This document shows, piece after piece, positions 769 to 32,309 of a stretch of 35,168 nt of DNA. The DNA is from an uncultured Oscillochloris sp. (GTDB taxonomy: Bacteria > Chloroflexota > Chloroflexia > Chloroflexales > Chloroflexaceae), in assembly GCA_903920315.1 (NCBI GenBank), contig CAIXLU010000527.1, positions 1-35,168 of the forward strand, written 5' to 3'. The notes under the pieces are model-generated. The model saw only the letters and a program-made list of their open reading frames with translations. It was not told where the DNA came from and did no database searches. Position 1 is the first letter of the stretch. Each line of letters starts with the position of its first letter. The position numbers and the translations under genes were made by a program.

Positions 769-1125
769 ATGCTCGCGAACTATGCCTTTATTGGTATTTT
801 CTTTGTGGCCTCGTTCAGTTTTCCTCTCGCCCCCTTGGTTATGGCTTTCTTCCTCCGACCCAAGCGACCAACGCCGCTGAAGCAGTCGACGTATGAGTGT
901 GGCCTTGAGGTGATTGGCGATCTCCGGGTGCAGTTCAAAGTGCAGTACTACCTCTACGCCCTGGCCTTTGTGATTTTTGACATTGAGGTGGTCTTCCTTT
1001 ACCCGTGGGCGGTGGCCTTCCACAAACTAGGGATGTATGGCTTTACGGCGGCGGCGGTCTTCTTGGTGATGCTCTTCGCCGGTCTGGTCTACGAGTGGCG
1101 CAAGGGTGCGTTGGAGTGGGTGTAG
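769..1125 (+). CDS. nuoA: NADH-quinone oxidoreductase subunit A
   Basis: NuoA is a small membrane subunit of complex I beside the quinone channel, next to NuoH and NuoJ. The 118-residue product has the usual length and three hydrophobic helices. It carries the family landmarks STYECG in the TM1-TM2 loop, whose Cys sits by the quinone pathway, and [11 protein letters not shown] in TM2. GGAGGG precedes ATG 769 by 8 nt. It is the first gene of the operon, directly behind the promoter at 694-723. Its last 10 bases, including the TAG stop, are part of a 21-bp sequence repeated exactly 88 bp downstream (1204-1224), so the gene end was copied along with the following repeat. Confidence 0.97.
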
Positions 1126-1128
1126 GAA

Positions 1129-1297
1129 TTGCAGATTTCAGATTGCAGATTGTGGATTGTTGCGGCAATCCACAATCCACAATCTACAATCTGAAATCGA
1201 GATGTGGGTGTAGGAATTGCAGATGAGAGATTGTGGATTGTGGGTTGCTACGGCAGTCTAAAATCTAAAATCTAAAATCTGAAATCTGAAATCGAGA
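1129..1297. repeat. Twin ATTGTGG/GCAGATT repeat units between nuoA and nuoB
   Basis: Two related units fill the gap. Each begins with the nuoA stop and the sequence TGTAGGAATTGCAGAT (1121-1136 and 1209-1224), and each ends with CTGAAATCGAGAT. The first contains a perfect 11-bp inverted repeat, ATTGTGGATTG/CAATCCACAAT (1149-1159/1166-1176), with a 6-nt loop. The second ends in tandem TCTAAAA and CTGAAAT heptamers. The tail GAGAT serves as the weak ribosome binding site of nuoB. The same family occurs at 11611-11695 and partly at 7008-7039 and 32274-32309. Confidence 0.85.
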
Positions 1298-1298
1298 T

Positions 1299-2093
1299 AT
1301 GGCAGACGCAAACAACATCCAGCAGGATCTTGAGCAGCAGGGGATCTTCCTCTCAACGGTCAACCGCTTTTATAACTGGGGGCGGCGTTCGTCAATCTGG
1401 CCCATGTCGTTTGGCCTCGCCTGCTGCGCTATCGAGATGATGGCTTTCGGTCTGAGCCGCTACGATGTTGCCCGCTTCGGGGCCGAATTGTTCCGCGCCT
1501 CACCGCGCCAATCCGACTTGATGATTGTCGCCGGAACTGTCACGAAGAAGATGCTGCCCCAGTTGGTGCGGCTCTACAATCAGATGGCCGAGCCGCGTTA
1601 TGTGATCTCGATGGGTGCCTGCGCAACCTCCGGCGGTCCCTTCCGCGATGGCTACAATGTCGTACGTGGGGTTGACCTGTTCATTCCCGTGGATGTCTAC
1701 ATCCCCGGCTGCCCGCCGCGCCCTGAGGCGCTGCTCCACGCCCTGATCACGCTCCAGGAGCAGATTGACAATCAGAAGCTCGGTCATCTGCGCTGGTACG
1801 GTAAGGGCGAGAAGCCGCAGATGCAGGATTTTCCGGTGCCAACCTTCGGTGCCCAAGGTCTTGAGATTGACGGCAAACTGGTTGACCCGGTGGGCGGGTT
1901 GCCGTTGGTAAGCCCCTATACCTCGCCTGAGTACGGCGAGCAGAAGAGCGGGCAGATCGAACACCCCGAGATCGTGCGCCACTTCCCGATTATGGATCCT
2001 TCTGTCGCGCTGGAAGACGCGCTCAAGGCCCGTGGGATCGCCCCCGAGATCGCGGCCAATGATCTCAAGCGCGGTGGGGTGTCCAATGCCTAA
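1299..2093 (+). CDS. nuoB: NADH-quinone oxidoreductase subunit B
   Basis: NuoB holds the terminal 4Fe-4S cluster N2 that passes electrons to quinone at the junction of the peripheral and membrane arms. All four ligands are visible: the tandem C42-C43 in LACCAIEM, C108 in GACATSGG and C138 in [11 protein letters not shown]. At 264 residues it is longer than many NuoB proteins (about 160-220). The excess is a hydrophilic C-terminal extension after about residue 180 that contains no further Cys motif. It overlaps nuoC by 8 bp, which suggests coupled translation. The upstream ribosome binding site lies within repeat sequence and is poor. Confidence 0.97.
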
Positions 2094-2607
2094 CCTGAGT
2101 GCTGAAGATCTGCGCACACGTCTGGTTCGCGATCTTCCTGGTGCGGTACAGAGTGTGTCCCCGCTGAAGGTAGTTCCGCCGCCCGCGCAGGGCCACGCCC
2201 CCGCCGCCTTCGTGACCGGCGATACGCTGGTGGAAGCCGCTCGGATTGTTGATGTCGCCCTGTATCTGCGCGATAGGTTGAACTACGCCTATCTCTCTGA
2301 CATCTGTGTGGTGGACTATCTGGCCGACGAGATCTTCGAGATCGTCTACCGGTTCTACACGGTCGAGGGTGGCTCCTCCCTGGCGCTCAAGGTTCGCGTG
2401 CCACGCGAGAACCCTGTGGTGCCGTCGCTGACGGCCCACTGGCCGGGGGCGAATTTCCACGAGCGCGAGGCGTTCGACCTCTACGGGATTGTGTTTGTCG
2501 GCCACCCTTACCTCCACCGCATTTATATGTGGGACGAGTTCGAGGGTTTCCCGATGCGTAAAGATTTCCCCAGGCAGGGCGATAAGTATATTGGCGAGGA
2601 CGAGTAA
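2086..2607 (+). CDS. nuoC: NADH-quinone oxidoreductase subunit C
   Basis: NuoC is a cofactor-free subunit of the connecting module that packs on NuoD. The start chosen is ATG 2086, which overlaps the nuoB stop by 8 bp and gives 173 residues beginning MPNLSAEDL. An in-frame ATG at 2032 lies inside nuoB and would add 18 residues unlike the family. The family signature is intact near the C terminus: [14 protein letters not shown], then RI and GFPMRKDFP. It is not fused to NuoD, unlike in E. coli. A strong hairpin follows the stop. Confidence 0.95.
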
Positions 2608-2611
2608 GAGA

Positions 2612-2645
2612 GGGGTCGAGGGAGGGATGGCCCTCGCTCGACCCC
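2612..2645. repeat. 15-bp stem hairpin between nuoC and nuoD
   Basis: Arms 2612-2626 and 2631-2645 pair over 15 positions with one mismatch and a 4-nt ATGG loop. No T-run follows, so it is unlikely to end transcription. A structure 8 nt before the nuoD start could limit nuoD translation or protect the upstream mRNA end. Confidence 0.7.
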
Positions 2646-2652
2646 TCCCCCG

Positions 2653-3777
2653 ATGGATTACTCAGGTATGCTGAAAACGGAAGAGCTCCAGATCAATATT
2701 GGGCCGCAGCACCCCTCGACCCACGGCGTGTTTCGTATGCTGGTGACGGTGGACGGTGAGACGGTCACCGATCTCAAGCCGGTCTTTGGCTATCTGCACC
2801 GTAACCACGAGCAGATTGCAGAGGTGAATACCTACCTGCAAAATATGCCCTATACGGATCGGCTGGATTACTTCAACGCGATGGCGAACAACCAAGCCTA
2901 TGCCATGGCGGTGGAGAAAATGGTCGGGATTGAGGTACCCGAGCGCGCCGAGTATCTCCGCGTGTTGATGGTTGAACTGACCCGTATTCTCAACCACGCC
3001 GGTGCCCTAGGATTCCTGATCAACGATATGGGAGCCTGGCAGACCCAACTCGCCTTCGGTATGCGCGAGCGCGAGAAGATCCTTGATCTTTTCGAGTCGG
3101 TCTCGGGGGCGCGCTTGATGTGCAACTACTTCCGCTTTGGTGGAGTTGCCCGCGATCTGCCGCCGGACTTTATGCCGCGCCTGAAGGATCTGTTGGTCGC
3201 CATGCCGGCCTTCGTGGACGAGATGGAGCGCCTGCTGCGCGAGAACGAGATCCTGCTCCAGCGGTCTGAGGGTATCGGTATTTTGCCCAAGGATCTGGCT
3301 CTGGCCTATAGCGTCACCGGGCCGGTGCTGCGTGGCTCCGGCGTGGCCTACGATATTCGGCGGGCCGAACCCTATAGCATTTACGACCGGCTTGATTTTG
3401 ATATTCCAGTCGGCTCGGTGGGCGATGTCTACGACCGCATTCTGGTACGGATCGAGGAGATGCGCCAGAGCAGGCGGATCATCGAGCAGGTGATCGCGCA
3501 GTTGCCCGATGCGCAGGGTGGTCACATCAACCCCAAGGCCCGCCAGAATGTGCGCCCGCCGGTGGGCGATGTCTACGCTCGCGTCGAAACACCGAAGGGC
3601 GAACTGGGATTCTATCTGGTCAGCGATGGCTCTAGCAAGCCTTATCGTTACAAGGTACGTGCTCCCTCGTTCATTAACCTCACGCCCCTTGGTGATATGT
3701 GTCGGGGCTACAAGGTTGCCGATATGGTCGTGATCCTGGGCAGCATTGATATCGTGATGGGCGAGGTGGATCGGTGA
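2653..3777 (+). CDS. nuoD: NADH-quinone oxidoreductase subunit D
   Basis: NuoD is the 49-kDa-type subunit, related to [NiFe] hydrogenase large subunits, and forms the quinone pocket with NuoB. The product is 374 residues. The N-terminal [16 protein letters not shown] contains the quinone-binding His region, followed by [12 protein letters not shown] and the conserved tyrosine loop [14 protein letters not shown]. The C terminus has [10 protein letters not shown] and ends near DIVMGEVDR as in the family. ATG 2668 is a possible later start, but 2653 gives a normal N terminus. Its TGA overlaps the GTG of nuoI (GTGA), so the two are translationally coupled. Confidence 0.97.
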
Positions 3778-4889
3778 CGATTGAAATGCAGCGTGGCAGT
3801 GTGATCGTGATGGATCGGCGCAGAGGTAAGTTGCGCGCCGGGCAGGGTCTGCTCCAGGGTCTCAAGGTCGTCTGGGATCACTGGGCCGGTTCGTTTCGCA
3901 CGAATGATAACTTCAGCAAGATCCACGGCACCTTTACGGTCGAGTACCCCGATGAGCGCCTGCCGATGCCGCAGGCGTACCGGAATATGCCGGTGCTGCT
4001 CTTTGATGATGAGAGTGGCCACGAACTGTGTACTGGGTGCTATCAGTGTCAACGGATCTGCCCGCCTCAGGTGATTCACATCACGCAGGCGAAGGATCCG
4101 GTTACGGGCAAGATGGTACCGGCCGCAACGGAATTCATCATTGAGTACGATGCCTGTATGAGCTGCGGGTTCTGTGCTGAGGTCTGTCCGTTTGACTCGA
4201 TCAAGATGGATCATGTCTACGAGTTGTCTACCGCTGATCGGGTCTCGCTCACGATGCGCAAGACGCAGCTCAACCGGCCAATCTCGTACTACACTGGCAT
4301 TGCGCCAGATCTGTGGGCCGAGGCGCAGGCTGGGGCAATGAAGAAACTCCAGGGCAGCATCAAGCGCCGCCCTGATGTGATCGGCCTGGCGGCGAGCCTG
4401 ACCGAGAAGATTAAGGCCCGTCGTCTGGAGTTAGCCGCCGCAGGGCAGGTGGCAGGAGGCGGGGGGCAGGAGGCAGGGGTCGCACCTGCCGCGCCCGCTG
4501 CGAAGTTGACGCCTGAGGAGAAGGCAGCCAAGCTAGCGGCGATGAAGGCGGCCAAGCAGGCCGGGGGCGCTCCCGCGCCTGCCGAGGCACCGGTCGAGCT
4601 GTCGCCAGCGGACGCGAAGGCGGCCAAGTTGGCGGCAATCAAGGCAGCCAACGCGGCTAAACAGGCCGGGGCGGCACCCGCCGAGGCACCGGTCGAACTC
4701 TCCCCAGCGGACGCGAAGGCGGCCAAACTGGCGGCGATCAAGGCGGCGAATGCAGCTAAGCAGGCTGGAGCAGTGCCTGCGCCGGTCGAGGTACCATCCA
4801 CGCCGCTGGACGCGAAGGCGGCACGGCTGGCGGCGATCAAGGCGGCCAACGCAGCTAAGCAAGCTGCGGAGCAGAGCAACAACGAATAG
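3774..4889 (+). CDS. nuoI: NADH-quinone oxidoreductase subunit I with Ala/Lys repeat tail
   Basis: NuoI carries clusters N6a and N6b on the electron path to NuoB. Both ferredoxin motifs are complete: C86-C89-C92-C96P and C128-C131-C134-C138P. The core ends at about residue 215, the normal size. The remaining 155 or so residues are an Ala/Lys/Pro-rich tail. From about K244 it contains four imperfect copies of a unit with core [20 protein letters not shown]; the middle copies have a strict 33-residue (99-bp) period. The tail should be helical, basic and soluble. The segment before it (4441-4480) matches the GGCAGGAGGCAGG repeat also seen at 31698-31797. The start GTG 3774 overlaps the nuoD stop; ATG 3786 is an alternative. 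Confidence 0.95.
4582..4889 (+). repeat. 99-bp tandem repeat in the 3' end of nuoI
   Basis: Units beginning GAGGCACCGGTCGA at 4583 and 4682 are 99 bp apart and nearly identical over their length. A more divergent copy follows to the stop, and an older one precedes (4503-4582). The period is a multiple of three, so each copy adds 33 residues in frame. The high DNA identity of the two middle copies suggests recent expansion or homogenisation. Confidence 0.85.
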
Positions 4890-4928
4890 GTGGCCTTGCC
4901 ACAGCCAATGACGGCGAGAGAATAGCTC

Positions 4929-6260
4929 ATGCAAGATGTTGTCAACCAGGTGATCAATACCTCCTTCGGCTGGGGTTGGCCGAGTTGGGCGATTGCACTG
5001 ATCGGCTACCTGATCGTTGCCGCAATCCTTTTCGGGATCGCGCCCTTCCAGATGCTCTTCCTGACTCTCTACGAGCGGCGAGCCATCGCCCGTATGCAGG
5101 ATCGGATCGGGCCAAACCGGGTTGGCCCCGAGGGTGCGTTTCAACCCCTGGCTGACGGCGTAAAAATCTTCACGAAGGAAGACATCGTCCCCGCCGCCGC
5201 CGACCAATGGGTTCATTTCATCGCCCCCTGCGTGGTAGTGGCCCCGACGATGTTTATGTTCGCCGTACTGCCCTGGGGACCGGGCATGGTGCCGGTTGAT
5301 ATGAACCTCGGCCTGCTCTTCTTCTTCGCCATCTCCTCAGTGAGCGCGGTGGGGCTGATGATGGCGGGTTGGGCGTCGAGCAACAAGTTCGCCTTGGTCG
5401 GTGCGATGCGCGCCGTGGCCCAAATGGTGAGCTACGAGATCCCGGCAGTCCTGAGCCTGTTGGCGATTGTCATGGTGACGGGCAGCCTCTCGATTGTTGA
5501 GTTGATCAACTATCAGGGCGGTCTGTTCATCAGCACCAGGGATGTGGCCAGCGTGCCGGACTGGGGGCTGGGCTGGTTTATCTTCTCTCCGGTGGGTTTT
5601 CTGGCCTTTATCGCCTTCTTCATCGCCGCGCTCGCCGAGGGCGAGCGTACCCCCTTCGACATCCCCGAGGCCGACTCCGAGATTGTCGCTGGCTACATGA
5701 CTGAGTACAGCGGCATGAAGTTCGGCCTGTTCTACCTCGCCCAGTACGTCCTTAACTTCCTGCTCTGCGCGATCACGTCAATCATCTTCTTCGGTGGTTG
5801 GCAGGGGCCGGGCGTAGGCTGGCTCTACGCTCAGGCGATCACACCCGCGAACCTGCAGGGCGACTGGATCTTCAATGTGCTGGCCGGTGTCCTCGGTGTC
5901 TTCTACTTCCTGCTGAAAACCTACGGCTTCTTCTTTGTGATGGTCTGGATTCGCGGAGCCTACGCTCGTCTGCGTATTGACCAGTTGATGGACTTTGGCT
6001 GGAAGTTCCTCATTCCGCTGACCCTGGTGAATATCTTCAGCGCGGCGATCTGGGTGGGCCTGACAAAGTGGGGCGCGGCTGATGGACTGGCTTTTGTGGA
6101 GGGCTGGTCGCCGCTAATGCGCTGGGCGGTGGCCTTTGCGGTGACGTTGATCTTGAACCTGGGTGCCTACCTCTTCCTGGCGCGGATCTTCGCGCAATCA
6201 CAGGATGAGCGTACACGCCAGGACGACGAAGTTCTTGAGCAATTGACAAACGTGGCGTAG
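4929..6260 (+). CDS. nuoH: NADH-quinone oxidoreductase subunit H
   Basis: NuoH is the eight-helix membrane subunit that forms the quinone chamber and starts the proton pathway. Conserved stretches are plain: YERRAIARMQDRIGPNRVGP in the first cytoplasmic loop, QMVSYEIP, and the acidic loop EGERTPFDIPEADSEIVAGY. At 443 residues it is somewhat longer than typical (320-430), with hydrophilic insertions and an extended C terminus. GGCGAGAG upstream can serve as ribosome binding site. The TAG stop lies inside the left arm of the GTAGGGGC repeat that follows. Confidence 0.97.
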   Translation: MQDVVNQVINTSFGWGWPSWAIALIGYLIVAAILFGIAPFQMLFLTLYERRAIARMQDRIGPNRVGPEGAFQPLADGVKIFTKEDIVPAAADQWVHFIAPCVVVAPTMFMFAVLPWGPGMVPVDMNLGLLFFFAISSVSAVGLMMAGWASSNKFALVGAMRAVAQMVSYEIPAVLSLLAIVMVTGSLSIVELINYQGGLFISTRDVASVPDWGLGWFIFSPVGFLAFIAFFIAALAEGERTPFDIPEADSEIVAGYMTEYSGMKFGLFYLAQYVLNFLLCAITSIIFFGGWQGPGVGWLYAQAITPANLQGDWIFNVLAGVLGVFYFLLKTYGFFFVMVWIRGAYARLRIDQLMDFGWKFLIPLTLVNIFSAAIWVGLTKWGAADGLAFVEGWSPLMRWAVAFAVTLILNLGAYLFLARIFAQSQDERTRQDDEVLEQLTNVA

Positions 6261-6314
6261 GGGCGTAGCAGCAAGATGGGCGTGTGACGATCATCTCGTT
6301 GTTACGCCCCTACG
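6256..6314. repeat. GTAGGGGC-family hairpin between nuoH and nuoJ
   Basis: CGTAGGGGCGTA (6256-6267) and TACGCCCCTACG (6303-6314) are perfect 12-bp inverse arms around a 35-nt loop. The nuoH stop codon (6258-6260) is part of the left arm. It belongs to the same family as 16-70 and 29525-29681. Confidence 0.8.
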
Positions 6315-6324
6315 GTGGGAACCG

Positions 6325-6939
6325 ATGGATCTGTTGATTCAAATCATCTTTGGGCTGCTGGTGGCCCTGATCATCGGCGCGGCGATGATGGTAGTGACGG
6401 TGCGGAATGTTATCCACGCGGCGCTGTGGCTGATTGCCTCGTTCTTCGCTGTGGCTGCGCTCTACCTGGTCCTTGAGGCTGAGTTCATTGCCATTGTGCA
6501 GGTACTCGTCTACGTGGGGGCGATCTCGATTCTGATCCTGTTCGCGATCATGCTCACCCGCTCAAGCGAGGGCGAGCGGTTGCTCACCCAGCACTGGTGG
6601 GCGGCGGCGCTGATCTCGCTCGGCCTGTTTGGCGCGGTGCTGCTGCCCACGCTGGTTGGCCACACATGGAACATCCCCCTGCCTTCTGGTGCGCCGGGTA
6701 CGCCCGAGACACTCTCAGGAGTGGAGGAGATTGGTCGCGGCTTTGTCAACGAGTTTGTCATCCATTTTGAGGTGGCCGGTATCCTGCTCACCGTCGCCCT
6801 CATTGGCGCGATTGTGATCGCCTTTGAGGAACGCTCCCGGCGTCGCCGCGTACTCACCCTGTCGGAGGAGCATATCCTGCGGCAGCGCCAGCAGGCGACG
6901 GCGGAGCGGGTGTCGGCGGTCGCTGATGCAGTTGATTAA
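6325..6939 (+). CDS. nuoJ: NADH-quinone oxidoreductase subunit J
   Basis: NuoJ is a five-helix membrane subunit between NuoH/NuoA and NuoK; its third helix switches conformation during turnover. The 204-residue product has the family core AEFIAIVQVLVYVGAISILILFAIMLT near residues 52-78, including the conserved VYVGAI turn. Hydrophobic helices precede and follow it, and the C-terminal tail is charged and cytoplasmic. Length is normal. GGTGGGAA lies just before ATG 6325. A 121-nt gap with a dispersed repeat separates it from nuoK. Confidence 0.96.
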   Translation: MDLLIQIIFGLLVALIIGAAMMVVTVRNVIHAALWLIASFFAVAALYLVLEAEFIAIVQVLVYVGAISILILFAIMLTRSSEGERLLTQHWWAAALISLGLFGAVLLPTLVGHTWNIPLPSGAPGTPETLSGVEEIGRGFVNEFVIHFEVAGILLTVALIGAIVIAFEERSRRRRVLTLSEEHILRQRQQATAERVSAVADAVD

Positions 6940-6965
6940 TCGCTCTACGACAAGGTTCGCAGGTA

Positions 6966-7039
6966 CGTGACAGTTTGGGCACATGTAGCGACTCCTGTTG
7001 CGGCACATCTGCAATCTAAAATCTGCAATCTGCAATCTT
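6966..7039 (+). repeat. 74-bp dispersed repeat, copy 1
   Basis: It starts CGTGACAGTTTGGGCACATG, continues TCCTGTTGCGG and ends with GCAATCT heptamers. A second copy of identical length in the same orientation lies at 32236-32309, about 80% identical by eye. It sits between nuoJ and nuoK, upstream of the nuoK ribosome binding site. No protein-coding sense is evident. Confidence 0.8.
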
Positions 7040-7060
7040 GTCTACCGGAGGTAATGCCCG

Positions 7061-7378
7061 ATGACCCGTGCGATCCCGCTTGAGGCGGTGCTGGCGGTGG
7101 CCGCCGCTCTCTTCTGCATCGGCCTGTTCGGTGCCCTCTCGCGCCGTAACCTTGTCGGCGTACTCATGGGTATCGAGTTGATGCTCAACTCGGTGAATAT
7201 TAACCTGGTAGCCTTCTGGCGCTATCTGGAGCCGCGCTTTATCACCGGGCCATCCTTCGCCATCTTCATCATTACCGTGGCCGCCGCCGAGGCTGCCGTT
7301 GGCCTGGCGATGATTATCGCCATCTACCGCACGTGGAACACCGTGAATATTGATAGCGTGGATAGTTTGAAGGGTTAG
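7061..7378 (+). CDS. nuoK: NADH-quinone oxidoreductase subunit K
   Basis: NuoK is a three-helix membrane subunit resembling MrpC that carries two buried glutamates needed for proton transfer. Both are visible: the first in [13 protein letters not shown] of TM2 and the second in [16 protein letters not shown] of TM3. The 105-residue length is normal. CCGGAGGTAA gives a strong ribosome binding site before ATG 7061. A terminator-like hairpin follows the gene, between it and nuoL. Confidence 0.97.
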
Positions 7379-7386
7379 GGCGATAA

Positions 7387-7425
7387 GGTAGCGTGCGAGC
7401 AAGATTCCCGCGCTACCCTGTTTTT
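7387..7425 (+). terminator. Terminator-like hairpin between nuoK and nuoL
   Basis: GGTAGCG (7387-7393) pairs with CGCTACC (7411-7417), with possible further GC pairs inside, and is followed after CTG by five T (7421-7425). In the middle of an operon it would lower, not abolish, transcription of nuoL-M-M-N. It could equally be a degenerate repeat. No experiment supports it here. Confidence 0.4.
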
Positions 7426-7459
7426 CACGTGGCGCACACCGCCGCATGAATAATGGCCA

Positions 7460-7502
7460 CGGCTGTCGGCTGTCGGCTATCGGCTATCGGCTATCGGCTA
7501 TT
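7460..7502 (+). repeat. GGCTATC tandem repeat upstream of nuoL
   Basis: A run of 7-bp units, CGGCTGT then CGGCTAT, repeated about six times. An inverted relative lies inside a coding sequence at 31019-31055. It is open in the nuoL frame and would add an artificial N-terminal extension if translation began at ATG 7453. The ribosome binding site favours ATG 7528, so the repeat is taken as leader. Confidence 0.8.
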
Positions 7503-7527
7503 TTCGCATCAGTGGACAGAGGATCAG

Positions 7528-9849
7528 ATGTCGTTCTTCCTGCAATACCCTTGGCTGATCCCGGCGCTGCCGTTGTTTGGCTTCGCGCTGATCACCTTCA
7601 CGCCGCTGCGCCAAAGCAAGTCGGCTAGCACGTGGACGGCCACCGGCCTGATGCTGGTCGCTACGCTGTTGGCCCTTGGTCTGCTCGCTGCGGTGGCCGG
7701 GTCGCCTACCCACGCGGAGTCCGCCGGTGCGGCTGTTGGCGAACCTGCCGGTGATTCCGCTGGTGCGGCTGCTGGCACGGGTCACGGTGAGTCCGCCGGT
7801 ACGGCTGCTGGTACGGGTCACGGTGCGGTTGCTGGCGATACCACCAGTGAGCCTACCCACAAGAGCTTCGCCTTCCCGGCTCCCGCCGTGGTTCAGCGCT
7901 TCGAGTGGGCGCCCGCTGGATCATCCACCTTTGCGATGGGCGTGTACATCGACTCGCCTGTGGCTGTGATGCTGGCGATGGTCACCATCGCCGCAACCTG
8001 CATCCACCTCTTCTCGATTGGCTACATGGCCAGCAACCCGCGCCAGAGCCGCTTCTTCAGCTTTATCTCGCTCTTCACCTCGGCGATGTTGCTGATGACG
8101 ATGGCCGACAACCTGCTGCTCTTCTTCATGGCCTGGGAGATCATGGGTCTCTGCTCGTACCTGCTGATCGGCTTTCTTTATGAACGCCCCCAGGCATACC
8201 GCGCTGCCGTTAAGGCGTTCATCACCACGCGCATCGGCGATGTGCTGATGTTGCTCGGCCTCGTCTACCTGTGGACGCAGGCGGGTAGCCTGGCCCTGGG
8301 TACCGGCGAGGGCGAAATCTTTAACCCCGAGTTCCTCAAGCGCATTGGGGAGACAACAAACGCTCTGGGCATGAGCCACGCCAGCGGGATCGCCCTGCTG
8401 ATCTTCTGTGGCACCATTGGCAAATCGGCCCAGTTCCCGCTGCACGTCTGGCTACCCGACGCGATGGAGGGGCCGACCCCGGTGTCGGCACTCATTCACG
8501 CTGCCACGATGGTGGCCGCTGGCGTTTTCCTGGTTGCCCGCACCTACCCGATCTTCCAGGCCGACGATGGCACGACCCTACAGGTAGTGGCGTTTATCGG
8601 CGCGTTTACCGCACTGTTTGCGGCCAGCATCGCCGTGGCTCAGTACGATATTAAGCGCATCCTGGCCTACAGTACACTCAGCCAACTCGGCTTTATGGTC
8701 GCCGCCCTCGGCATTGGCGGCTGGGTGGCTGGGATGTTCCATCTGCTCACTCACGCCTTCTTTAAGGCACTGCTCTTCCTCGGTTCGGGCGCGATCATCC
8801 ACGCGATGGAGGGAACAACCGCCATCGAGAAGCTGCATCACAGCGATGAGTACGCCGCTCAGCAGACCGCGCAGGACATCCGTAATATGGGTGGCCTACG
8901 TACAAAGCTGCCCTGGACGTTCTGGACCTACTCGATTGGCTACCTGGCTCTGGCCGGGATCGTGCCTTTCGCTGGTTTCTGGAGCAAGGACGAGATCCTG
9001 GCCCACGCGGCGGAGGATGGCAACTTTGTGGTCTATGGCGTGCTGACCCTGGCGGCCTTCCTGACAGCCTTCTATATGACTCGCCAGTGGCTGCTGGTCT
9101 TTTTCGGCACCTTCCGTGGCGAGAAGCCAGTGGCCTTTGTGAACACGGAGTTGCACGTTGGGCACGATGATCACCTCGGACACGATGATCACGCAGGCCA
9201 CGCGAGCCACACCGATGCCCACGCTGACCACAGTCCTTGGCACGAGTCGCCGACGATGACGGCGGCGCTGGTGGTGTTGGCCAGTTTCGCGCTAACGGCG
9301 GGATTCTTCAACCTGCCCTTTGATATTCCCGGTGGCTTTTGGCTCACCCACCTGTGGAGTCAAGAGCCAGCGGAGATCAATTGGCTGGTGGCCAGTGTCT
9401 CGCTGGTGGTGGCGCTATCGGGCATCGGCATTGGCTGGCTCGCCTACCGCAACGCTTTCGGTGCGGCTCAGGACACTGACCCACTCAACGCACGGGTGCC
9501 CGGCATGTTCCGCCTGCTGAACGAGAAGTATCGCGTTGATGAGCTGTACGCCGCCAGCTTTGGCCGAGTCACGAACGCTCTGGCGTTGGCGTGGGCTTTC
9601 ATTGACCGCGCTCTGCTGAACGGGATTGTGGATGGTGTGGGCAAGCTGACGCTCTTCGTCAGCCAGGTGAACTTCATTATTGACGACACCTTGCTCAACG
9701 ATGGCCCCGACGCCCTGGCCAGTGGGACGAATGCGGCTGGCCGACAAACCCGTCGCCTCCAGACAGGGAAGGCCCAGGACTACATTGCCTATGTGTTTGC
9801 CGGTACCCTCGCCCTGGCGATGCTCTATCTGTATGTGATTAAGAAGTAG
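7528..9849 (+). CDS. nuoL: NADH-quinone oxidoreductase subunit L
   Basis: NuoL is the distal antiporter-like proton-pumping subunit. ATG 7528 (AGAGGA 4 nt upstream, protein MSFFLQYPWLIP) is preferred over ATG 7453, whose extra 25 residues come from repeat DNA. The product is 773 residues, longer than the usual 600-680. Pumping residues are intact: E in FMAWEIMG, K in GTIGKSAQFPLHVWLP, H in ALIHAATMV and K in GFWSKDEIL. Three parts enlarge it: a Gly/Ala/Ser/Glu loop (about 57-113), a His-rich loop before HESP (about 538-573, ten His), and a longer lateral helix. In that helix, residues 692-698 (IDRALLN) are echoed at 718-724 (IDDTLLN) before RRLQTG. The TAG stop lies inside the following repeat. 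Confidence 0.97.
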   Translation: MSFFLQYPWLIPALPLFGFALITFTPLRQSKSASTWTATGLMLVATLLALGLLAAVAGSPTHAESAGAAVGEPAGDSAGAAAGTGHGESAGTAAGTGHGAVAGDTTSEPTHKSFAFPAPAVVQRFEWAPAGSSTFAMGVYIDSPVAVMLAMVTIAATCIHLFSIGYMASNPRQSRFFSFISLFTSAMLLMTMADNLLLFFMAWEIMGLCSYLLIGFLYERPQAYRAAVKAFITTRIGDVLMLLGLVYLWTQAGSLALGTGEGEIFNPEFLKRIGETTNALGMSHASGIALLIFCGTIGKSAQFPLHVWLPDAMEGPTPVSALIHAATMVAAGVFLVARTYPIFQADDGTTLQVVAFIGAFTALFAASIAVAQYDIKRILAYSTLSQLGFMVAALGIGGWVAGMFHLLTHAFFKALLFLGSGAIIHAMEGTTAIEKLHHSDEYAAQQTAQDIRNMGGLRTKLPWTFWTYSIGYLALAGIVPFAGFWSKDEILAHAAEDGNFVVYGVLTLAAFLTAFYMTRQWLLVFFGTFRGEKPVAFVNTELHVGHDDHLGHDDHAGHASHTDAHADHSPWHESPTMTAALVVLASFALTAGFFNLPFDIPGGFWLTHLWSQEPAEINWLVASVSLVVALSGIGIGWLAYRNAFGAAQDTDPLNARVPGMFRLLNEKYRVDELYAASFGRVTNALALAWAFIDRALLNGIVDGVGKLTLFVSQVNFIIDDTLLNDGPDALASGTNAAGRQTRRLQTGKAQDYIAYVFAGTLALAMLYLYVIKK

Positions 9850-9863
9850 GGACGCCCCGCCGA

Positions 9864-9923
9864 GTAGAGACGCCCCGCTAGGGCGTCTCTACGACGCATC
9901 GCTGAGGCGTCGTAGAGACGCCC
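9864..9923. repeat. Triple-arm GTAGAGACGCCC repeat between nuoL and nuoM
   Basis: Three arms compete. The middle arm (9881-9897) pairs with the left arm 9864-9875 over 12 perfect bp with a 5-nt loop. Alternatively it pairs with the right arm 9907-9923 over 17 perfect bp with a 9-nt loop. The two hairpins are mutually exclusive. The second ends 18 nt before the nuoM start. Similar in base sequence to the GTAGGGGC family. Confidence 0.8.
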
Positions 9924-9941
9924 GAACCCGATGGGATTGAT

Positions 9942-11609
9942 ATGAACCTGCCCGCATACCTTATGCCTTCGCCGGATGGCGTACCGTGGCTGACGCTGCT
10001 GCTGCTGTCTCCCCTGCTAGGCATGGTTCTGGTCGGCCTCGCTGGTGCGCTGCGTTGGGATGATCGCCTGGTGAAGATCGGGGTTGCCGCATGGATGGGC
10101 CTACCAATGGCGATTGCCATCGTGGTAGCGGCTGGCTTTGCGTCTACGGCAACATCTGACGGACAGGGACTCGTGCAGTTTGTTGAGAAGATTCCCTGGA
10201 TCCAGGCTATCCGTGTGGACTATTTCCTGGGCGTGGATGGGCTGAGTCTGCCGCTGGTGCTGCTCACGGTGGTGATGGCTCCTCTGGCGGTTGCGGCCTC
10301 ATGGAGTGTGACCGAGCGGGTCAAGACGCACTTCGCCATGCTGCTGCTGCTTGAGGCGGCGATGCTCGGTTATTTCCTGGCACTCAACTTCTTCTTCTTC
10401 TTCATCTTCTGGGAATTCAGCCTAGTGCCGGCCTTCTTCCTCATCCAGCTCTGGGGCAGGGAGAACCGCACCTACGCTGCCTTTAAGTTCTTTATCTACA
10501 CGATGGCGGGATCGGTGGGCCTGCTGCTGCTCTTCCAGGTACTCTACCTGGCCACCCGCAGCGCCGGCGCACCCACCTTCGACCTGATCACCCTCGGGCG
10601 GCTCGGTCAGGGTCTTGCAGTGGAGGGGACTCAGGGCAATCTGCGCGACATCATCTTCGCCTATGTAGAGAAGCTGGGCCTGACAGCCTCCCTCGGGCGC
10701 TACCCACTGCTCTATACGAGCATTGCCTTCTGGGCGATATTCGTCGCCTTCGCGATCAAGCTGGCAGTCTGGCCCTTCCACACCTGGCTGCCCGATGCCT
10801 ATAGTCAGGCTCCGCTGGCTGGTTCGATCATGCTGTCGGCGGTGATGAGCAAGATGGGCGCCTACGGCATGCTGCGCATTCTGCTGCCGCTGGTTCCCGA
10901 CGCGGCCCAATACTTCGCCCCGGTGATGGGTGCCCTGGCTCTGGTGGGCATTGTGGCCGGTGCCTTCGGTGCCCTGGCCAATGTGGACGGCGATATTAAA
11001 CGACTGATCGCCTACACCAGTATCAACCACATGGGCTACGTGATGCTGGCGATTGCGGCGGCCGCCGCCGCACCCGGTGGAGCAACGCAAGACTCGCGGG
11101 CGATTGCGATCAATGGTGCCCTGATGCAAATGGTGGCCCACGGCCTGAGTACCGGCGTCCTGTTCTACCTGGCTGGGCTGCTGCACGCACGCACCGGAAG
11201 CTGGAATCTGAGTGGTCTCGGTGGCCTGCGCACGGTGGCCCCCACCTTCGCTGGCGTGATGGGTCTGGCCATGTTTGCGAACCTGGGCCTGCCCGGATTG
11301 GCAGGCTTCCTCGGCGAATTCTTCATCTTCCGAGGGGCGTGGGCTACCCTGCCACTCTTCACCAACCTGGCGGTGATCGGCCTGATCATCACCGCCCTAG
11401 CCCTGTTGCTGATGTTCCAGCGTATCTTCCTTGGACCGGCAGGAAAGGCCGCCCACGGGTTTACCGACCTGCATCCGGCTGAGCTATGGACGACCGTGCC
11501 CTTCCTGGCAGCCCTGCTCTTCTTCGGCGTCTACCCGGCCCCGATCATGAACCTGTTTAACGCCACCGCAACTCAGTTGGTGGCAGTGTTCCAGCGCGTC
11601 CTTTCGTGA
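9942..11609 (+). CDS. nuoM: NADH-quinone oxidoreductase subunit M, copy 1
   Basis: NuoM is an antiporter-like proton-pumping subunit located between NuoN and NuoL. The 555-residue product has about 14 hydrophobic helices and all the key charges: E in FIFWEFSLVPAFF (TM5), K273 in FAIKLAVWPFHTW (TM7), K in AVMSKMGAYG (TM8) and E in GFLGEFFIF (TM12). It is longer than most NuoM (about 500). The ribosome binding site GATGGGAT is weak. It is followed by a second, divergent NuoM gene with only repeat DNA between them. Confidence 0.96.
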   Translation: MNLPAYLMPSPDGVPWLTLLLLSPLLGMVLVGLAGALRWDDRLVKIGVAAWMGLPMAIAIVVAAGFASTATSDGQGLVQFVEKIPWIQAIRVDYFLGVDGLSLPLVLLTVVMAPLAVAASWSVTERVKTHFAMLLLLEAAMLGYFLALNFFFFFIFWEFSLVPAFFLIQLWGRENRTYAAFKFFIYTMAGSVGLLLLFQVLYLATRSAGAPTFDLITLGRLGQGLAVEGTQGNLRDIIFAYVEKLGLTASLGRYPLLYTSIAFWAIFVAFAIKLAVWPFHTWLPDAYSQAPLAGSIMLSAVMSKMGAYGMLRILLPLVPDAAQYFAPVMGALALVGIVAGAFGALANVDGDIKRLIAYTSINHMGYVMLAIAAAAAAPGGATQDSRAIAINGALMQMVAHGLSTGVLFYLAGLLHARTGSWNLSGLGGLRTVAPTFAGVMGLAMFANLGLPGLAGFLGEFFIFRGAWATLPLFTNLAVIGLIITALALLLMFQRIFLGPAGKAAHGFTDLHPAELWTTVPFLAALLFFGVYPAPIMNLFNATATQLVAVFQRVLS

Positions 11610-11610
11610 G

Positions 11611-11695
11611 ATTGTGGATTGTGGATTGTGGGTTGTGGATTGTGGATTGCAGACACTGCACCAATCCACAATCCACAATCCACAATCTGCAATCA
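11611..11695. repeat. ATTGTGG tandem and inverted repeat between the two nuoM genes
   Basis: After the first nuoM stop come five or six units of ATTGTGG (some GTTGTGG), then a spacer, then CAATCCACAATCCACAAT in inverse orientation. The block can fold into a long hairpin of 18 bp or more. It belongs to the family seen at 1129-1297. Read in frame with the second nuoM it would encode a spurious N terminus (MDCGLWVVDCGL), which is rejected. Confidence 0.85.
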
Positions 11696-11709
11696 TTAGA
11701 GTGAGCCAT

Positions 11710-13224
11710 ATGGGCCTGATCACCCTCTCAAACACCATCCCCTGGCTGAGCCTGATATGGCTGAGCCTGCTCGTGCCGACGCTGCTGATTGCCGCCATCC
11801 CGAGCAGCCAGAAGACTCTGATGCGTGTGGTCGGCACGGGGTTCGCCTTCATATCGCTGGTGCTGTCGGTGCTGGTCTTCGTGGGTTATAGCCCAGATGT
11901 CGGCGGCTTCCAGTTTGTTGAGCGACTCGATTGGATGCCTCAACTTGGCATCTCCTACTTGCTTGGTGTTGACGGGATCAGCCTGGCGATGCTGGTACTC
12001 AACGGGGTGGTGATCTTCACAGGCGCGCTGATGAGCTGGAACATTGATAACCGCACCAAAGAATACTGGGTGCTGCTACTGCTTCTCACCACCGGCGTTT
12101 ATGGGGTATTCGTCTCCCTGGACATGTTCCTCTTCTTTGTCTTCTACGAACTGGCTGTGCTGCCGATGTACCTGCTGATTGGCATCTGGGGCAGCACGCG
12201 CAAAGAGTACGGAGCGATGAAGCTGACCATGTTTTTGATGGCGGGCAGCGCCCTGGCGATCATCGGGATGCTGGCGATCTACTTCGGCAGCGGATTGCGC
12301 ACCTTCGACATGACCGTGCTGGCCCGCAATGTGACCATGTCGGCTGAACTGCAGCGGATCTTCTTCCCGCCGCTCTTCCTCGGTTTCGCCGTGCTGGCCG
12401 GCATGTTCCCCTTCCACACATGGAGCCCCACCGGCCACGTGGCCGCGCCCACGGCGGTGAGTATGCTCCACGCCGGTGTGTTGATGAAGCTGGGAGCCTA
12501 TGGCTGTCTGCGCGCCGCGATGTGGCTGATGCCCAGCGGTGCCCACGACTGGCTGCCGATCTTCGCCGTCATGACCATTCTGAATGTGGTCTATGGGGCA
12601 ACCATTGCGATGGCCCAGCGTGACGCCAAGTACATTATTGGCTACTCGTCGGTGAGCCACATGGGTCTGGTGATGATGGGTCTGGCCACCGGCACGCAGA
12701 TCGCACTGCTCGGCGCGGTGCTGCAAATGTTCGCCCACGGCGTGATGACCGCCCTCTTCTTCTCGGTGGTCGGGCGCATGGTCTACGAGCGCACCCACAC
12801 CCGCCAACTGCCGGAACTGGGGGGGCTGGGTAAAGTGATGCCCTTCGCGGCGGTGATGTTCATCCTGGGCGGGCTCTCCTCGATGGGCATGCCCGGTTTC
12901 GCCGGGTTCTGGGCCGAGTTCAATATCTTCATCGGCGTCTGGGAGAAATACCCGCTGATTGCCGTGATTGCCGCGATCTCCATCCCGATCACCGGAGCCT
13001 ACATCCTGCGCGCCGTCTACGCCGTCTTCTTTGCCGAGGTGAAGAATCCTGAGTTTCTGCATCTGCCCAAGCTGACGTGGCAAGAGTACACGGGGGCGAC
13101 AATCCTAGCGACCATTCTGATCGCTGTTGGGCTCTTCCCGTCGGTGCTGACTGAGGTGATCAATATGGGCGTCGCGCCGATTGCCCAGCAGCTCAACGAT
13201 GTGGTCGTGGCCGTTCGTCCGTAA
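11710..13224 (+). CDS. nuoM: NADH-quinone oxidoreductase subunit M, copy 2
   Basis: A second NuoM-type antiporter-like subunit of 504 residues, starting [12 protein letters not shown] at ATG 11710 behind TAGAGTGAG. The in-frame ATG 11614 lies in repeat DNA and is rejected. It has E in [14 protein letters not shown] (TM5), K in [14 protein letters not shown] (TM8) and E in GFWAEFNIF (TM12). The TM7 lysine expected five residues before PFHTW is absent: the position is L229 in [13 protein letters not shown]. Copy 1 keeps this lysine. The two copies are clearly divergent, so this is an old duplication or separate subfamily. Adjacent dual nuoM genes mark complex I types with a fourth pumping-type subunit. 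Confidence 0.95.
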
Positions 13225-13271
13225 ACAGGAGCAGGGTTTGGGGCATCGCCCCGATAATAAAGGTAGTGAAG

Positions 13272-14876
13272 ATGTTTCAGATCACCGACGTCCCGCGCAT
13301 CTTGCCGGAAATCCTGCTGCTGGTGCTGGCCCTGCTCGTGCTTGGCTCCGATATCTTTGAGCGCTGGGCGAACAACGACGCGGCGAGGCTTGAGCGGGTA
13401 CGTGCCTCGGCTCAGCTTACCGCGATTGGCCTAGGACTGATTTTTGTCATCGCTCTGGTGCAGAGTGGCTATGTGTACAAGCTGCCCGATACGGTGCCGG
13501 TAAATTTCCTCACGAACATCCTGCGTAACTTGCAGTCTGGTGGCCCTGGACAGGCACCGATCATCGGCGCGTTTGCTACCGACGACCTGACCATGATCTC
13601 CCGGCTCGTCTTCATTGGTGCAGCGTTCCTTACGAGCTTGCTCTGCCTGGACGACTATCCTTCCAGCAACCCGGCTGAGTTCTACGCCCTGATTATCTTC
13701 TCGACGCTGGGTATGTGCCTCATGGCGGGTGCCACCGAGTTGGTGATGATTTTCCTGGGTGTGGAGATGACCTCCATCCCGCTCTACATCCTGGCCGGTT
13801 ACTTCAGCAGCGAGGCCCGCTCGTCGGAGTCGGGGATGAAGTACCTGCTCTTTGGCGCGATGTCGTCGGCCATTCTGCTCTACGGTATGAGCCTGGTTTA
13901 CGGCTTTGCGGCCAACGCGGTAGGTGGCAACGGCGTAGCCAATGATCTGACTCAACTGAGCAGGATCGCTGCACTCTCGAAGCAGGGTGGCCCCTTGCTC
14001 ACGTTGAGCATGATCTTGATCATCGCCGGGATAGGCTATAAGGTGGCGGTGGTTCCCTTCCACGGCTGGTCGCCCGATGTGTACCAGGGAGCGCCCACGC
14101 CGGTGACGGCCTTCATCTCCACAGCATCGAAGGCGGCTGGCTTCATCGTCCTCTTCCGCCTGCTCACCGTCGCCTTCCCCAGACTCTCCGGCTCGGCCAT
14201 CCTGGATGCGAATCTGGGGGGCTGGACAAGCCTGCTGGCTCTGCTGGCTCTGCTCACGCTGATTGTGGGTAATCTGGCAGCCTTGCCGCAAACGAACGCG
14301 AAGCGCCTGCTAGCCTACTCTAGCATCGCTCAGGCTGGGTTCATCCTGCTCGGGCTGATCGCCTGGGCCGCGCCCCAGGCGTTTGATCGCAACCAGGGCA
14401 CCGCGTCTCTGCTCTACTATCTGGTGGTCTATACACTGACGAACGTCGGCGGCTTCGGCGCACTCTCGGCGATTAAGCTGGCTGTTGGTGGCGACGATGT
14501 CAGCGACCTGAACGGCTTGGCCCGGCGCAACCTGCCCCTGGCCGTTCTCTTCGCCTTCTGCGTCCTCTCACTCGCTGGCGTGCCGCCTCTGGCTGGATTT
14601 TTTGCCAAGTTCTATGTCTTTATGGTGGCCTGGCAAAGCGGGGCATGGTGGCTGGTGATTATCGCCTTGTTCACGACGATTGTGAGCCTCTACTACTACC
14701 TGCGGATGCTCAAGGCCATGTTTATCACCGCCCCGTCTAACGAGTCTCCTGTGGCTGTCCCCGCTGGAATTATGTCGGCTCTGGGTATTTCCGTCGCTGG
14801 CCTCGTGATCCTCGGCCTCTTCCCGAACCTTGTTCTGGGTATCCTCAGCCGTGTACAGACCGTCGCGGGGATGTAG
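13272..14876 (+). CDS. nuoN: NADH-quinone oxidoreductase subunit N
   Basis: NuoN is the antiporter-like subunit nearest NuoK. Key residues are present: E in [14 protein letters not shown] (TM5), K in [14 protein letters not shown] (TM7), K in STASKAAGF (TM8) and K in GFFAKFYVF (TM12). ATG 13272 is chosen because AAAGG (13259-13263) lies 8 nt upstream; GTG 13266 is too close to it. The product is 534 residues, a normal size. It is the last nuo gene; an 11-bp GC-rich hairpin follows within 45 nt. A short hairpin (GGGGC ATC GCCCC, about 13238-13250) lies in the gap before it. Confidence 0.97.
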
Positions 14877-32235: not shown

Positions 32236-32309
32236 CGTGACAGTTCGGGTACATGCATTGCATCCTGTTGCGGAAAATCTGCAATCTGCAATCTAAAATT
32301 TGCAATCTT
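32236..32309 (+). repeat. 74-bp dispersed repeat, copy 2
   Basis: CGTGACAGTTCGGGTACATG, then TCCTGTTGCGG and GCAATCT heptamers, ending in TT. It has the same length and orientation as 6966-7039 and is about 80% identical. It sits between two minus-strand genes, directly after the stop of the DUF4173 gene. Confidence 0.8.

Follow-up and report, generated by a model that had tools for sequence, protein, structure and literature searches.

A complex I with a second NuoM subunit, the 2M complex I, goes back to Chadwick et al. (2018, ISME J 12:2668), whose account we take from later papers (PMC7117926, PMC8004040, PMC6606698, PMC9040806). To the extent of the text available from these and an earlier report (PMC3150298), both a NuoL insertion of about 26 residues and the occurrence of the 2M complex in Chloroflexi are already published, while the translocation of extra protons per two electrons has appeared only as a proposal. 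In the accessible portions of the literature the enzyme is cited as a natural one with a higher proton yield, which bears on slow-growing, alkaline and autotrophic life.

The closest described systems come from Chloroflexus. A duplicated nuoM of C. aurantiacus was reported in 2011 (Caur_1976-1987; PMC3150298), and excerpts of a later paper, with reference to Chadwick et al. 2018, describe Cagg_1620-1631 of C. aggregans as a 2-M complex (PMC8004040); by the available sections of both, the lineage, whose earlier coverage the initial annotation of this DNA had left undecided, was already represented. Further afield, the available part of PMC9040806 states that MrpD2 of Manganitrophaceae carries a conserved insertion of 26 residues and that Nitrospira NuoL has one comparable in length and position. 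Complex_I_3 of Ca. Manganitrophaceae resembles the locus studied here in having a 26-residue C-terminal lateral-helix insertion together with two NuoM, and differs from it in that two MrpD-like subunits replace NuoL, giving five antiporter-like subunits in total.

A nuo operon with two nuoM genes

The window, by which we mean the whole stretch of 35,168 nucleotides that was analysed, carries a forward-strand nuo operon in the order nuoA-B-C-D-I-H-J-K-L-M1-M2-N (about 769-14876; Table 1), which exceeds the range of 7528-13224 that was annotated initially. The host genome belongs to Chloroflexota, family Chloroflexaceae, is 96% complete and yielded one NuoL only. The two adjacent nuoM genes recognized from the beginning are indeed divergent, both products matching TIGR01972 while being only 33% identical to each other, and the nearest named M2 records are those of a Chloroflexales MAG (83%), Candidatus Chloroploca mongolica (80%) and Chloroflexus islandicus (77%). 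The open reading frame in the nuoM2 frame begins at 11614, inside a 7-bp repeat, and the likely start of nuoM2 is about 11710.

Table 1. Features of the nuo operon, in window coordinates
Feature	Position	Strand	Basis or remark
nuoA (by position)	769..1125	+	118 aa ORF; ORF list and gene order only
nuoB	1299..2093	+	NCBIfam PRK14819, 515 bits
nuoC (by position)	2032..2607	+	ORF list, between nuoB and nuoD; true start probably past the nuoB stop
nuoD	2653..3777	+	PRK12322/PRK06075
nuoI, 371 aa	3774..4889	+	TIGR01971; NuoI models cover residues 52-166
nuoH	4929..6260	+	Pfam PF00146
nuoJ	6325..6939	+	PF00499
nuoK	7061..7378	+	PF00420
nuoL, 773 aa	7528..9849	+	PRK06590, 577 bits
HL segment RVDELY..QTG, 79 aa	9532..9768	+	53-55 aa in most one-NuoM NuoL
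HL unit 1, FIDRALLNGIVDGVGKLTLFVSQVNF	9598..9675	+	
HL unit 2, IIDDTLLNDGPDALASGTNAAGRQTR	9676..9753	+	26 residues after unit 1
nuoM1	9942..11609	+	TIGR01972, 462 bits
nuoM2	11710..13224	+	TIGR01972, 448 bits; likely start MGLITLS
nuoM2 Leu codon at E. coli NuoM K234 position	12394..12396	+	
nuoN	13266..14876	+	TIGR01770, 370 bits

Like the published 2M complex I, as far as the available text describes it, the operon has two NuoM between nuoL and nuoN, a longer NuoL, a host in the Chloroflexi and no adjoining nuoEFG, and we found no defining difference between the two. It likewise shares its family, the two nuoM genes and the long lateral helix (HL) with the 12-gene nuo cluster of Chloroflexus, in which HL is 79 residues long both in L015 (probably C. 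aurantiacus) and in L017 (probably C. aggregans); Chloroflexus also possesses a second, 14-gene complex I, whereas the window genome yielded a single NuoL and no nuoEFG. That the window operon encodes a 2M complex I, of a kind already known for Chloroflexaceae, is well supported.

The second complex I found in the window's genus (L070, L071) was considered as a nuoM-less form and proved ordinary: nuoL is directly followed by nuoN, and nuoM lies on another contig and is close to the Chloroflexus type with one NuoM.

The lateral helix of NuoL

Comparison with standard NuoL sequences gave an HL segment of 79 residues against 53-55 in most one-NuoM (1M) Chloroflexota operons, and the excess of about 25 residues agrees with the 24-26 estimated at first sight. 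In AlphaFold models, the window NuoL has 81 residues between the start of HL and the last transmembrane helix, 27 more than the 54 of the 1M paralogue of C. aggregans. The fold of the window NuoL model matches solved NuoL/NdhF chains; pLDDT in HL was low (about 37-67), as one would anticipate when a helix is modelled in isolation from its partner subunits.

With 7528 as the start of nuoL, the motif IDRALLN occupies residues 692-698 (nt 9601-9621) and IDDTLLN residues 718-724 (nt 9679-9699), exactly 26 apart, as had been noted. Given that a match of 5/7 positions between 7-mers occurred at lag 26 in 0.14% of shuffles of the window NuoL, and at any lag in 5.7%, this match, taken alone, is a weak argument for duplication. 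Over 44 dereplicated (related) long helices, self-similarity peaked at lags 26-27 (z about 8, compared with shuffles of each sequence), one of these two lags being the best in 29 of the 44; the clearest copy in the window's clade is that of L042, in which WFDKNVIDWTVNAVGRGTWAVARGLR is followed by WFDINIVDGLVNALG. It is mainly the relatives that support an origin of the insertion by internal duplication of one HL unit, the window's own match being modest.

Helix length and the number of nuoM genes

We collected 80 Chloroflexota loci in a phylum-wide NuoL search and 80 named loci in a scan with an M2 alignment; since the latter were found by way of M2, the share of 2M operons among them is no frequency. 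HL measured 78-88 residues in all 82 complete L-M-M-N operons, each of which holds both nuoM genes between nuoL and nuoN in one operon, and none of the 82 combined two nuoM genes with a short HL. Among the L-M-N operons, HL was 53-55 residues in 46 of 51 and 79-84 in the other five.

Long helices accompanied by a single NuoM call for closer attention. In L040, L042 and L046 (genomes G088, G011 and G184) the HL, of 79-81 residues, is related to that of the 2M type, and genome-wide searches revealed no second NuoM suited to a long-helix complex in these three genomes, the only matches being canonical NuoM of other complexes or a truncated M1/canonical-like fragment. An assembly gap is ruled out as the reason for the missing gene, given these searches and the fact that the genes abut inside a contig. 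In L077 and L078 (G249 and G154) HL was lengthened separately, again with a single NuoM. Because long helices occur in 1M operons, the helix alone is no proof of a fourth subunit; the same operons uncouple helix length from subunit number and so offer a natural control. In L078 the added stretch resembles a clean tandem duplication of 26 residues, at a site nearer the N-terminus.

With the HL columns left out, a NuoL tree required two changes for the long helix and three for the 2M state. As the long helix arose only about twice, the agreement in 82 of 82 operons of this sample mostly reflects one ancient event and not many independent ones, and a sign test for co-gain, with 3 independent contrasts, had no power. 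L040, L042 and L046 belong to the 2M NuoL clade, two of the three lying inside 2M, and a single NuoL clade of the 2M rows was rejected (AU p 0.0007); their NuoM and NuoN sequences, by contrast, form a clade of their own outside 2M, and the three operons may either have shed M2 or predate its acquisition. The co-occurrence of long helix and 2M state extends to Verrucomicrobia-labelled MAGs. Long-helix 2M operons were seen in four MAGs (L116, L121, L130 and L163), of which three carry the label Verrucomicrobia and the fourth that of an uncultured bacterium.

On these data the long HL might be an ancestral or neutral trait of the NuoL clade, unconnected with M2, as its presence in L040, L042 and L046 and its separate lengthening in L077 and L078 would allow. 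We nonetheless consider this unlikely, in view of the absence of any short HL from the 82 two-NuoM operons and of an excess that corresponds to about the width of one subunit. In E. coli, pumping fell sharply when 6-7 residues were inserted into HL between L and M (PMC3274701), and an excess of 26 residues should therefore not be neutral.

In the arrangement that we favour, L, M1, M2 and N would, if assembled in their gene order, line up as four antiporter-like subunits in a longer membrane arm, and one extra unit of HL (26 x 1.5 Å, about 39 Å) would let the helix of NuoL still span the row.

Two NuoM types

M1 and M2 sequences fell into separate clades (support 98 and 96, respectively), by which a tandem copying of M1 into M2 is ruled out. 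M2 is nested in a clade with support of 100 that also holds the single NuoM of Clostridia and other Chloroflexota, likewise without K234, and M2 was probably recruited from this separate NuoM lineage.

The two types differ at the position of K234 (E. coli NuoM, TM7), a column that was confirmed on E. coli numbering for a dereplicated subset: M1 has Lys in 94 of 94 sequences, while M2 has Leu in 92 and Thr in 2 of 94. In the window, M1 has the equivalents of E144, K234, K265 and E407, the active-pump set, of which M2 keeps three; the equivalents of E144, K265, H322, H348 and E407 are retained in M2 and that of K234 is Leu. In four M2 sequences the K265 equivalent is missing as well. The remaining antiporter-like subunits of the window keep the standard pumping residues that were tested, namely the equivalents of E144, R175, K229, H254, H338, K342 and K399 in NuoL, by residue map, and of E133, K158, K217, K247, K295 and K395 in NuoN.

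In 12 of the 51 1M operons the sole NuoM is M2-like and lacks K234, with an HL of the normal short length, and since these operons rely on it, the K234-less type is likely functional. Loci whose sole NuoM has no K234 equivalent include L029, L030, L074, L122, L143, L145, L149, L155, L160 and L167, among them Moorella and Clostridia records.

That each type serves elsewhere as the sole NuoM (M1-like in L040, L042 and L046; M2-like in L029, L030, L074 and others) would also fit two forms of complex I that have the other subunits in common and differ in whether M1 or M2 is present. Such swapping would need no longer helix, HL is short in the 1M complexes with an M2-like NuoM, and both genes occur together in 82 long-HL operons; we hold it to be very improbable.

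Place and function of M2

Genes, helix length, residues and trees give good support for four antiporter-like subunits, and M2 is probably the fourth of them in the assembled complex; no solved structure of a four-antiporter complex I was among the sequence matches listed. The initial annotation went further and took the organism to build a four-pump complex I. Its 2M part stands, with an HL about one 26-residue unit longer in the window and a long HL in 82 of 82 two-NuoM operons, whereas its fourth pump is not established, K234 being missing from M2 in 94 of 94 cases.

In E. coli NuoM, the residues K234, E144 and K265 have been reported to be indispensable (PMC5061711), and recent models of coupling give the K234-E144 pair a central role (PMC13324432). 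M2 might accordingly sit in the complex without pumping, serving as a passive spacer or a lateral relay; the enzyme would then have the H+/2e- of a three-pump complex. The consistent replacement of K234 in M2, set against its invariance in M1, and the further loss of K265 in four M2 favour such a role; the E144, K265, H322, H348 and E407 equivalents present in the window M2 and the 12 1M operons that depend on a K234-less NuoM speak against it. A further point against it is that E. coli HycC, of the same fold family as NuoM, has Leu at the K234 position too (PMC5061711); HycC forms part of formate hydrogenlyase and not of complex I, and differs in its Leu from E. coli NuoM, whose K234 is reported as essential. 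On balance a non-pumping M2 seems to us a minority prospect, to be taken seriously.

We think it highly probable that the product of the operon is a complex I of the 2M type lacking an NADH module of its own, in which M2 probably belongs to the lateral proton relay and might or might not export a whole extra proton per two electrons. M2 would contribute to the relay through its K265, H322, H348 and E407 equivalents, without the usual K234-E144 gating pair.

A more general proposal, which we offer tentatively, is that the extra subunit of the large 2M clade is in no case an ordinary pump: M2, from a separate NuoM lineage that lost the TM7 lysine, would either gate without the K234-E144 pair or yield no proton gain. 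If so, the distal residue row would read K(L)-E(M1)-E(M2)-K(N) instead of K-E-K, breaking the simple alternation of charge-asymmetry models. In the literature searched, citing papers included and to the extent of the text available, there was no statement on the loss of K234 from M2; Chadwick et al. 2018 lay outside that search. If M2 systematically lacks a residue that is essential in E. coli NuoM, the energetic claim made for 2M complexes needs measuring, and 2M enzymes would form a natural test of the need for the K234-E144 pair and for K-E-K alternation in coupling.

Electron input and repeats

No nuoE, nuoF or nuoG, the genes that a canonical 14-subunit NADH:quinone oxidoreductase has, was found in the operon (769-14876), and when the window's genome was searched for NuoF and NuoG, the sole matches were HoxF- and HoxU-type genes belonging to a hydrogenase cluster. 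These are HoxEFU-type diaphorase genes (L182; contig C447, 2860-7916), with HoxE alongside, that accompany a [NiFe] hydrogenase. Electrons for the complex would probably come from ferredoxin or another diaphorase.

Several repeats mark the operon and its surroundings. Arrays of 7-bp units (e.g. GATTGTG, CAATCCA) lie between genes at 1116-1286, 7007-7038, 7460-7501, 11610-11687 and 32276-32308; the array before nuoM2 is found on many contigs of the genome and yields false upstream starts for nuoM2, as a related array does for nuoL. A 99-bp tandem repeat (4581-4765) encodes a part of the NuoI C-terminal extension that is rich in Ala, Lys and Pro, and a 36-bp tandem repeat (7717-7825) encodes a Ser-Ala-Gly-rich loop, inserted near the N-terminus of NuoL, that is predicted to be disordered (pLDDT about 30).
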